Source: Jiella mangrovi
GTDB taxonomy: Bacteria; Pseudomonadota; Alphaproteobacteria; Rhizobiales; Rhizobiaceae
Assembly: GCF_017815135.1 (NCBI RefSeq)
Contig: NZ_JAGJCF010000005.1
Span: forward strand, 186,001 to 250,000
Direction of reading: 5' to 3'
DNA length: 64,000 nucleotides
Positions 56,046-60,233 of the stretch are shown here, one piece after another. A program made the position numbers and the translations under genes. The first letter of the stretch is position 1, and every line of letters begins with the position of its first letter. A model generated the notes under the pieces. The model made no database searches. It was not told the DNA's origin and saw nothing but the letters and a program-made list of their open reading frames with translations.

Positions 56046-56423
56046 ATGATCGCCAAAATCGTTTCCGCCATCATCCTCGTGCCGATCGCGATCGTGCTCG
56101 TCGTGTTCATGGTCGTGAACCGCGGAGACGTCGCCGTCAGTCTCGATCCGTTCGGCACCATCCCTCAGCTGACCTTCGATGCGAGACTGTCGATCCTTTT
56201 GATGTGCGCGGTCATCTTCGGTGTCGTGCTCGGGGGGATCGGCACGTTCCTCACCCAGGCCCACCATCGCCGTGCGTCCTACAAGCGCAAGCACGAGATC
56301 GAGCGGTTGCAGCGTGAGTCCGACAAGAAGGACGAGCGCATCCGCATGCTCGAGGAGGATCGCGCCGCGTCGGCCAGTGGTGCCTCGTCGCGAGCGATGG
56401 TTCCGGCCGCACGAGCCGCCTGA
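56046..56423 (+). CDS. LapA-domain (DUF1049) membrane protein
   Basis: A 125-residue protein with two membrane helices (about 4-24 and 47-70) and a charged coiled-coil tail (about 78-106: SYKRKHEIERLQRESDKKDERIRML). The motif VFMVVNRGDVAVSLDPFGTIP is typical of LapA/DUF1049 proteins, which in E. coli assist LPS assembly control. The ATG at 56046 was chosen because it directly precedes the first helix. It follows ihfB by 192 bp on the same strand. Confidence 0.85.
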   Translation: MIAKIVSAIILVPIAIVLVVFMVVNRGDVAVSLDPFGTIPQLTFDARLSILLMCAVIFGVVLGGIGTFLTQAHHRRASYKRKHEIERLQRESDKKDERIRMLEEDRAASASGASSRAMVPAARAA

Positions 56424-56582
56424 TCGCCGCTGCCGGCGCCATATGCAGCCTTGGTGAGAGCCGTTTGTCGACCGCTTGTTCCGGTCCAGTCAGTTGGCAG
56501 TCATCCACGGGTCGAGCAGCTGAACGTGAGTGGCTTGAAACGTGAGTGGCTCAAGATATGAGCGGCGCTGGACCCGCTGCCG

Positions 56583-56621
56583 AAAAAAAAGACCGGGAGC
56601 CCCGTCTTAAGACCCCCGGTC
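56583..56621 (-). terminator. Strong intrinsic terminator without an annotated upstream gene
   Basis: On the minus strand GACCGGG (56615-56621) pairs with CCCGGTC (56591-56597). The loop contains the palindrome GTCTTAAGAC. Eight T follow (A-run at 56583-56590 on the plus strand). It faces away from lapA and can only end a minus-strand transcript. Confidence 0.75.
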
Positions 56622-56706
56622 GAGCGGCCACAGTGGAAGGGACGGGACACTGCGACCGTTTCAGAACCGCCATATGCAAAATCTAAGACGGCTGGCGGCG
56701 GAGAGG
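56583..56706 (-). ncRNA. Candidate small RNA with anti-Shine-Dalgarno-like loop
   Basis: A minus-strand transcript of about 120 nt is inferred. It ends in a strong intrinsic terminator (56583-56621), preceded by a 10-bp hairpin with arms GGTCGCAGTG (56648-56657) and CACTGTGGCC (56626-56635). Two positions in the stem pair as G-U wobbles only in the minus-strand RNA and would be C-A mismatches in a plus-strand RNA. The 12-nt loop TCCCGTCCCTTC could bind Shine-Dalgarno sequences. No minus-strand gene lies between here and 59469. The 5' end is estimated from a candidate promoter. The wider gap 56424-57052 holds no convincing gene; a tandem 16-bp duplication (CGTGAGTGGCTTGAAA) sits at 56525-56556. 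Confidence 0.45.
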
Positions 56707-56712
56707 ACGAGC

Positions 56713-56738
56713 ACCGCTTGGGTCGCTCGATCCGTTCC
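56713..56738 (-). promoter_or_regulatory. Candidate EcfG-type (general stress) promoter of the small RNA
   Basis: On the minus strand GGAAC (56734-56738) is followed after 17 bp by CGGT (56713-56716), one mismatch from the GGAAC-N16/17-CGTT pattern of alphaproteobacterial EcfG promoters. It is positioned to start transcription near 56706. A single-site match of this kind can occur by chance. Confidence 0.3.
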
Positions 56739-57052
56739 ATGACGATCACAATCGCAAGTGACGGCTGAACGTCGCCGGAAGCCCGCATTCATTTTCCGTT
56801 CATACTGTTGTTCCACGAGAGAGTTCGTTTCGGCGACCTTTCGGCGGCCTGAAACGAAGTCGAATATCGGGCCGTGGCCGCGACTTTCGCCGATACGCTT
56901 TTTGAACGCTCCAATCTCCTGGTTTTAAGGACGCAGCGTCTCGCAGTTTGCAGAGCGAAAGCCGTCCTGTGCGTCTCCGGGCGGGCGCGCTTGCCGCCAA
57001 TGGCCGTCCACCAGCAACCATCAAATTTTTTCTTCCGCCGACAATTGGTCCT

Positions 57053-57081
57053 CTTGAACGGGCGAAAAGGCGCCACCAAAT
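57053..57081 (+). promoter_or_regulatory. Candidate heat-shock (RpoH) promoter of hsp20
   Basis: CTTGAAC (57053-57059), then 13 bp, then CCACCAAAT (57073-57081) resembles the CTTGAA-N13/14-CCCCATNT pattern of sigma-32. A start near 57088 would give a leader of about 95 nt, the length expected for the ROSE element seen there. Confidence 0.5.
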
Positions 57082-57087
57082 CGGGAG

Positions 57088-57182
57088 CGCGGCCGCTGGA
57101 AAGGGCCGCAACGGCCGAAGCAACGCCAATCGGGTTGCTTGATCGGTCATACGCGAAACTGTTGCTTCCAATGGAGAACATC
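57088..57182 (+). promoter_or_regulatory. ROSE-type RNA thermometer in the hsp20 leader
   Basis: Three hairpins can be drawn: GCGGCC/GGCCGC (from 57089), AAGCAAC (57117-57123) with GTTGCTT (57134-57140), and a last one in which GTTGCTTC (57161-57168) pairs with GGAGAAC (57173-57179). The last hairpin sequesters the Shine-Dalgarno GGAG and leaves one G bulged, exactly the TTGCT/bulged-G arrangement of ROSE elements in rhizobial and enterobacterial small heat-shock genes. Warming would melt it and allow translation. Confidence 0.8.
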
Positions 57183-57650
57183 ATGCGTCATGTTGACTTT
57201 GCCCCCCTCTACCGTTCCACCGTCGGCTTCGATCGGCTGGTGTCCATGCTCGATGGCCTGTCGCAGCCCGACAGCGGCCAGACCTATCCGCCCTACAACA
57301 TCGAGCGGACTGGCGAGAACGACTATCGCATCACCATGGCCGTCGCCGGCTTCGACGAGACCGAACTTTCGATCGAGTCGCGTGAGAACACGCTGACCGT
57401 GACGGGTGAAAAGGCCGAGAAGGAAGACGGGTCGTCCGAGACCCTCTATCGGGGCATTGCCGGCCGTGCGTTCGAGCGCCGCTTTCAGCTCGCCGAGCAT
57501 GTCGAGGTGAAGGGCGCGAGCCTCAAGAACGGCCTCCTGCACATCGATCTCGTCCGGGTGATCCCCGAGGCGATGAAGCCGCGCAAGATCGAAATCGCGA
57601 CGGCTGCCGGCAACGGCAACGAGAAGCAGATCGAGGCCGCCGCGGCCTGA
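57183..57650 (+). CDS. Small heat-shock protein Hsp20 (IbpA-like)
   Basis: A 155-residue alpha-crystallin-type holdase. MRHVDFAPLYRSTVGFDRLVSML matches the IbpA N-terminus, which sets the start at 57183 rather than the in-frame ATG at 57171. The alpha-crystallin domain runs from about 35 to 130 (YNIERTGENDYRITMAVAGFDE, ESRENTLTVTGEK, FERRFQLAEHVEVKGASLKNGLLHIDLVR). It binds unfolding proteins under heat or oxidative stress. It is followed by a clear intrinsic terminator, so it is monocistronic. Confidence 0.95.
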   Translation: MRHVDFAPLYRSTVGFDRLVSMLDGLSQPDSGQTYPPYNIERTGENDYRITMAVAGFDETELSIESRENTLTVTGEKAEKEDGSSETLYRGIAGRAFERRFQLAEHVEVKGASLKNGLLHIDLVRVIPEAMKPRKIEIATAAGNGNEKQIEAAAA

Positions 57651-59468: not shown

Positions 59469-60233
59469 TCAGCGGGTCTTCGGCCGCCGGTAGCGGATCG
59501 TCTCGAACCGCATGGTGAGGAGATCGACCATCAGGAGCTTGCCGATCAACGTGTCTCCGATGCCGCAGATCAGCTTGATCGCCTCATTGGCCGCGAGCGT
59601 GCCGAGAACGCCCGTGGTCGTGCCGAGGATGCCGGCCTCGGCGCAACTGGGCACGACGCCGGGGGGAGGGGCCTCTGGAAACAGGTCCCGGTAGCGCGGG
59701 TTTTCGCGTCCGTCCGCGTCGCGCCCGTGCGGCGCAAGGACGGTGAGGGAACCGGAAAAGCGCTGCACGGCAGCGGTGACGAGCGGAATTTCCGCCGCTT
59801 CGCACAGATCCGCCATCAGGTAGCGCGTCGCGAAATTGTCCGAGCCGTCGATGACGAGATCATAGGGCGCGACGATCGCCTTGCCGTTCTCCGCGCCAAG
59901 CCGAACCGGGTGTTCGACGAATTCGACATGGGGGTTGATGGCGGCAACGCTCTTCCTGGCACTCGCAAGTTTCGGGCGGCCGACATCGGGCGTTCCATGA
60001 AGCAGCTGTCGCTGCAGATTGGACAGCGACACCACGTCGTCGTCCGCCATGCCGATCGTTCCAACGCCGGCAGCCGCGAGATAGAGGGCAACCGGCGAAC
60101 CAAGGCCTCCGGCGCCGATGACGAGGACGCGCGCGCGCTTCAGGGCCTGCTGGCCGGCGCCGCCGACTTCGGGCAGGACGATGTGGCGGGCATAGCGCTC
60201 GATCTCCGACGGTGAGAGTGTCGTGTCGCTCAT
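59469..60233 (-). CDS. moeB: MoeB/ThiF-type adenylyltransferase
   Basis: A 254-residue E1-like enzyme that adenylates the C-terminus of MoaD (molybdopterin synthase) or a ThiS-type carrier. The nucleotide-binding GAGGLGS is at 40-46, NLQRQLLH carries the conserved Arg, DGSDNFATRYLMAD is typical and VPSCAEAGILG carries the conserved Cys. The paired CxxC zinc ligands of E. coli MoeB are not seen. A ThiF role cannot be excluded. It lies 4 bp after the recF stop region on the same strand. Confidence 0.9.
   Translation of the reverse strand: MSDTTLSPSEIERYARHIVLPEVGGAGQQALKRARVLVIGAGGLGSPVALYLAAAGVGTIGMADDDVVSLSNLQRQLLHGTPDVGRPKLASARKSVAAINPHVEFVEHPVRLGAENGKAIVAPYDLVIDGSDNFATRYLMADLCEAAEIPLVTAAVQRFSGSLTVLAPHGRDADGRENPRYRDLFPEAPPPGVVPSCAEAGILGTTTGVLGTLAANEAIKLICGIGDTLIGKLLMVDLLTMRFETIRYRRPKTR

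Follow-up and report, generated by a model that had tools for sequence, protein, structure and literature searches.

The 64,000-nucleotide stretch of the Jiella mangrovi genome analysed here (hereafter, the window) carries an apparent small RNA gene on its minus strand, between a convergent LapA-domain gene (56046..56423, plus strand; Pfam LapA_dom, 7.7e-8) and a divergent hsp20 gene (57183..57650, plus strand; Pfam HSP20, E 4.4e-18), the latter being the heat-shock neighbour that the first-pass annotation had pointed out. The RNA ends in an intrinsic terminator (56583..56621, minus strand) whose 13-bp stem (56591-56621) is followed by eight U reaching down to 56583, as that annotation had described. 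Directly before the terminator lies a central hairpin (56625..56658, minus strand) of nine Watson-Crick and two G-U pairs; the two G-U pairs had thus been read correctly, and the stem proved to be 11 bp rather than 10 bp long. Its conserved loop, UCCCGUCCCUUC (56636..56647, minus strand), with CGUCCCUUCC as the core kept across the family, is the predicted pairing seed. A third hairpin at the 5' side (56667..56701, minus strand) reads CCGCC/GGCGG in eight Jiella genomes and CCACC/GGTGG in two. The absence of any minus-strand gene for nearly 3 kb upstream was borne out: the first plausible one, which inspection suggests to be ThiF/MoeB-like, lies 2.76 kb off, its end being at 59469, and the minus-strand ORFs between 56706 and 59469, which are either antisense to hsp20 and a permease-like gene or intergenic, were judged spurious by inspection.

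The RNA is present in all 10 Jiella genomes searched, hairpin and terminator being conserved in these close relatives. A first covariance model built from the 10 Jiella sequences had matches, at a threshold of E 0.1, in 32 of 151 genomes from the same family; among the 30 loci returned, 21 had the loop core and nine (L049-L057) were judged chance matches by inspection, the strongest of them (L049) at E 5.3e-6, while three further matches came without a locus and fall outside the 30. At E 0.01, a second model, for which 25 sequences were used, had matches in 205 of 394 family genomes, spread over 65 of 109 genera. The family sampled is what we take to be the Rhizobiaceae as defined by GTDB, rhizobia included. 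The 189 family genomes that gave no match may reflect either a real absence of the RNA or the reach of the model. As a check on the weak end, a renewed search of 39 genomes with weaker matches gave 30 loci (E 1.5e-6 to 0.0013), all of which were read: 28 had the loop core, the promoter element described below and an hsp20-like frame, and two (L251, L263) were without the core. Across the order, the model matched four of 199 genomes at E 0.001, all four in the same family, and a scan of 397 order genomes for the core motif, one mismatch being allowed, gave two matches besides the genome of origin, both judged coding by inspection. Plasmid records gave no match to the RNA. The family analyses below use 121 loci picked to spread over genera rather than all 205 matching genomes; one locus (L174), in which the pattern used did not detect a core, was dropped, leaving 120 loci, three of them second copies within a genome. 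We note that no hsp20 was found beside these second copies (L083, L143 and L144, in G558, G541 and G591), two of which keep the promoter element.

Folded as the minus strand, positions 56583-56706 gave a minimum free energy of -53.5 kcal/mol, against a mean of -39.6 for shuffled sequences (z -4.08), and none of 200 shuffles was equally stable. In the alignment of the 10 Jiella genomes, the two G-U pairs of the central hairpin are replaced by U-A in G003 and by A-U in G002. Covariation of this hairpin, a check that the first-pass annotation had itself proposed, is pronounced. A MAFFT alignment of 24 copies, made without fitting to the structure, has double-sided changes at 8 of the 11 pairs, with 93.9% of cells pairing and a score of 0.512 as compared to 0.249 for shuffled and 0.04-0.20 for slid alignments. 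A model-guided alignment of 100 of the 121 loci has such changes at all 30 pairs (6/6 in the 5' hairpin, 11/11 in the central hairpin and 13/13 in the terminator), with 94.4% of cells pairing and a score of 0.739 (0.236 shuffled; at most 0.125 slid), counts that lean towards the structure because the model was used in aligning. In these 100 copies the stems vary freely and the loop does not, its core CGUCCCUUCC being 96-100% identical at each position among copies picked with a model and a pattern that both include the loop. G-U cells outnumber A-C/C-A cells 104 to 8 in the central hairpin and 114 to 9 in the terminator, and the RNA is therefore read from the minus strand of the window; the 5' hairpin, at 33 to 22, carries a weak strand signal. 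Comparative sequence analysis thus establishes both the structure and the strand, in line with the earlier reading of the G-U pairs as a sign of an RNA-level structure. As a separate observation, the 5' loop of Jiella, CCGUCUU (56685-56691), may base-pair with the AAGACGG in the terminator loop (56602-56608); these seven pairs fit nine of ten Jiella rows by eye, and in G002 both sides change jointly (CCGUCUG/CAGACGG).

Upstream of the hairpins lies a 37-nt promoter element, aTGAACg-N3-gATGAAc-N5-cTTCnG-N4-cgTTCAg (56766..56802, minus strand), made up of four symmetric half-sites with a spacing of 11/10/11 and followed, 12 nt after GTTCA, by a predicted -10 box, GATTGT (56748..56753, minus strand). 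It is the single match in the 64-kb window (with no mismatches, up to two being allowed), and 100 shuffles gave none. The four-half-site element was found upstream of the RNA in 115 of the 120 loci with a search pattern that demanded TGAA and TTCA at a fixed distance and left the other columns free; 114 of these 115 have an extra TGAA 11 nt before the element, the candidate having TGAA being preferred where there were several. The -10 box takes the form tAnnnt, with TANNNT exactly 12 nt after the element in 63 of the 115 loci and, position by position, the first T in 65%, the A in 97% and the last T in 87%. The five loci in which the element is missing include L066, a stretch of 1687 bases that appears cut short upstream of the RNA and to which no ORF state was assigned. 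Because of the positions of the element and the -10 box, transcription is predicted to start near 56740, and the transcript is probably 158 nt long (56583..56740, minus strand), a 5' end that also takes into account profile position 51, where 63% of loci have an A.

The surroundings of the RNA are conserved to differing degrees. A divergent hsp20 was found upstream in 113 of the 120 loci, and a PldB-like hydrolase gene and a HisN-like gene, so named by inspection, often follow the RNA in other genera and are not found in the window. In 24 of the 120 loci, promoter and hairpin are separated by a small ORF (122-189 codons as read) that has a signal-peptide-like start and encodes a secreted PepSY-like protein, so that the RNA is there the tail of an mRNA. 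Element and loop are 508-650 nt apart (median 558) in these 24 loci and 69-195 nt apart (median 109) in the 91 loci without the ORF. Twenty-three of the 24 ORFs form one family: a profile built from the 23 recovers all 23, a circular result, and in phmmer comparisons within this small set 435 of 529 ordered pairs, self included, pass E 1e-3. The 24th is that of L037, where the PepSY-like frame was read by eye; the ORF calls in L037, L144 and L167 had been set aside as wrong frames, and L037 was later counted as having the ORF. Pfam PepSY_2 matched two of three ORFs tested, weakly and below the cut-off (E 0.00086 and 0.013), and NCBIfam gave no match for any of the three.

The coding and the non-coding form alternate among relatives. 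On an hsp20 tree of 113 rows, made by a quick method with SH-aLRT support only, the ORF state changes at least 8 times, as compared to 22 times for shuffled labels, and the starred branches force only two of the 8 changes. One genus (g214) has both forms, four loci without the ORF and two with it, and its hsp20 rows are split between two parts of the tree. Although the hsp20 tree does not separate gain from loss, we infer that the coding part has been lost rather than gained, a reading that we prefer because the ORF family is common to separate clades.

The element itself occurs at more than one kind of locus. A strict search (at most one mismatch) of the 10 Jiella genomes found 19 sites, the reversed control giving none. 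Nine of them are RNA loci, the tenth Jiella RNA locus (G008) having a more divergent copy of the element, and each of the remaining ten is followed by a small ORF, 111-132 aa as read, that resembles its counterparts and has a signal-like start. This ORF (CSPRRALNKARHFGIRHARIRGV...), which encodes a predicted small secreted protein, makes up a second element site in each of the 10 Jiella genomes (L218, L219, L221-L223, L225-L227, L230 and L234); two of the ten ORFs were tested and had no Pfam match. A looser scan of 61 family genomes gave a match in 26 and none in the control. It listed 30 places: the loop core follows in 18, and of the remaining 12, nine stand before ORFs whose starts look signal-like by eye, one of these ORFs having curlin repeats. 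In L111 (G021), the element lies near position 1500, upstream of a curlin-repeat protein (Pfam 3e-12).

The picture suggested by these observations is that of a promoter-plus-tail unit which, within one family, serves either as the mRNA of a secreted protein or as a free-standing RNA. The coding part would have been lost repeatedly and in parallel, promoter and tail being kept, and the conversion of mRNA into small RNA would have been driven by a regulator whose targets in Jiella hardly extend beyond the RNA and one other small secreted protein; we give this scenario an even chance of being right. Krieger et al. (2022), going by its title, reportedly describes a peroxide-responding small RNA that evolved from a peroxidase mRNA. 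The likeness lies in the descent of a small RNA from an mRNA; that case concerns another organism and another protein, whereas here the two forms alternate between relatives within one bacterial family.

Searches for a known counterpart agreed with the first-pass annotation in that this RNA appears undescribed. Rfam 15, the database that the annotation had suggested searching, gave no match at the gathering score in the window and none at E<=5 in 56400-57200; in the loci of 14 relatives, apart from suhB/mmgR at other positions, all its matches were sub-threshold. Among them is a BASRCI27 match in L088 that shares a few bases with the end of the RNA and was judged to be due to chance. The MmgR/suhB model (RF00519) matches about 2 kb downstream of the RNA, and not over it, in L081 (4058-4121) and L085 (4039-4117), above the gathering score, and in L093, below it, so that identity with MmgR was rejected. 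We note that in some relatives the RNA and MmgR, the latter about 2 kb downstream, flank the pldB/hisN-like pair. No description of the RNA was found in the literature searched, as far as the available portions of these articles go (among them PMC2245857, PMC2873474, PMC4414408, PMC2573895, PMC3616915, PMC12542648, PMC11975290, PMC6234868, PMC3927594, PMC7143759 and PMC9751625); the transcript may be listed, without a name, in supplementary tables. In Sinorhizobium meliloti, ibpA is SMc04040 and MmgR adjoins SMc04042 at 3,046,712; Table 1 of PMC7143759 has no conserved S. meliloti small RNA between 2,986,520 and 3,046,712, the position expected by synteny if the RNA were present there.

Several alphaproteobacterial RNAs can nonetheless be compared with it. 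NfeR1 (ar14), AbcR1/2 (ar15) and MmgR (ar8) are chromosomal and have hairpins exposing anti-Shine-Dalgarno or C/U-rich motifs (PMC7143759). The present RNA resembles these trans-acting RNAs in its pyrimidine-rich loop and, as to MmgR, in its neighbourhood in some relatives, and differs from them in having the core CGUCCCUUCC in one conserved loop, in its loci and in matching no Rfam family. ar14/NfeR1 is defined by three hairpins, each with an unpaired anti-Shine-Dalgarno motif (PMC7143759), whereas our RNA has only one conserved loop core and is thus not a member. Nor is it EcpR1 (SmelC291) of S. meliloti, whose SL1 loop reads UCCGCCGCAUCU and whose locus lies between divK-pleD and rpmG (PMC4414408), both loop and neighbours being different, or a member of the SmelC671 family, which has a long single strand with CUCCCUGU (PMC3927594), the core here being CGUCCCUUCC in a hairpin loop. 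PmaR of Agrobacterium shares with it a C-rich interacting sequence, not an anti-Shine-Dalgarno sequence, in a single-stranded loop, and differs in its locus between two hypothetical ORFs and in its narrow range, which outside Agrobacterium takes in just one Rhizobium strain (PMC6234868).

The features by which trans-acting base-pairing RNAs are recognized, namely an own promoter, an intrinsic terminator and a conserved unpaired seed, are all found at the level of sequence. Given the pyrimidine-rich loop, which stays fixed while its stem changes freely, the terminator and the own promoter, we take this to be a base-pairing RNA, pairing in trans through the loop being its likeliest action. A putative activator would read the four-half-site element at 56766-56802 and switch on both a small secreted protein and the RNA. 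The latter would display the loop CGUCCCUUCC on a stable stem, and the loop would pair with purine-rich mRNA stretches, most likely lowering their translation or stability; as the RNA would do so, the activator would gain a way to repress. In some genera the RNA would be the 3' untranslated tail of the secreted PepSY-like gene, under the same promoter, and in Jiella and most other loci examined, where the coding part is absent, promoter and tail would form a free-standing RNA gene. We consider it fairly probable that this is a genuine regulatory RNA of about 158 nt which acts in this manner.

The loop complement, GGAAGGGAC, is purine-rich and not a standard Shine-Dalgarno match, and the anti-Shine-Dalgarno role that had been proposed for the loop is a putative one. 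Perfect loop complements 3-10 nt before an ATG were found at 27 places in the 10 Jiella genomes, as compared to 10 in the reversed control; G003 accounts for 11 of the 27, one repeat contributing six of its places, and most of the 27 have no long ORF after them. No target gene common to the 10 Jiella genomes emerged from this search, sharing being limited to the pair G004/G008. G003 carries a repeated element with GGAAGGGACCAGGCCATG, several copies of which lie at contig ends (L188, L205, L207 and L209-L211). Predicted duplex energies between the RNA and neighbouring genes were not better than those of shuffled sequences for hsp20 (mean z +0.36, 114 loci), the 5' region of the PepSY-like gene (mean z +0.84, 23 loci) or the downstream gene (mean z +0.39, 32 loci). 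Among eight genes of the window, whose start sites are approximate, recF gave z -2.4 and the ThiF-like gene -1.4, the rest being at least -0.03.

Repression in trans through the loop, which we propose with moderate confidence, has decoy action as its main rival: the loop may titrate a protein or another small RNA instead of pairing with mRNAs. A rigid stem with a nearly invariant 10-nt loop is also expected of a decoy, and neither the loop-complement search in the 10 Jiella genomes nor the duplex energies of local genes yielded an mRNA target. The terminator with its U-tail, however, fits an RNA of the Hfq type. The known trans-acting RNAs AbcR, MmgR and NfeR1, whose unpaired regions hold anti-Shine-Dalgarno or C/U-rich motifs (PMC7143759), also speak against titration, and we regard it as unlikely, if the strongest of the alternatives. 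Less probable still is that the hairpins only provide a stable 3' end which protects and terminates an mRNA, and that in Jiella they are a leftover without an action of their own. While the position of the RNA at the tail of the PepSY-like gene in 24 of 120 loci is consistent with such a role, promoter, spacing and loop are kept in the 91 loci without the ORF, and a protective stem needs no invariant loop, let alone one that stays fixed on stems that change freely.

The proposal of the first-pass annotation, a general-stress RNA driven by EcfG with an anti-Shine-Dalgarno loop, fares worse than either of these and appears very improbable to us. Its GGAAC-N17-CGGT string is present as described (56713..56738, minus strand), and hsp20 adjoins. 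Given the predicted start near 56740, however, the string would lie inside the transcript, downstream of a different and far better conserved element. The natural comparison is GsrN of Caulobacter, one of the EcfG-regulated RNAs, which are defined by a conserved EcfG promoter; here GGAAC-N15-18-CGKT occurs 20-180 nt upstream of the loop in one of 120 loci, that of the Jiella mangrovi window alone, and the reading of the string as an EcfG-type promoter is not supported. That the 95-aa minus-strand ORF at 56501-56788 encodes a small protein can be practically discounted, since this open frame, although it does span the region, runs through the terminator, and among relatives the stems change in a paired manner and indels have lengths that are not multiples of three.

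Regulation by base pairing in trans remains our preferred reading of a small RNA that has matches in 205 of the 394 genomes sampled from one large family and is not described in the literature searched. Since relatives with and without the coding gene exist side by side, the family would allow a direct test of how mRNA tails give rise to regulatory RNAs; the four-half-site element, for its part, offers a handle on a predicted regulator of small secreted proteins.
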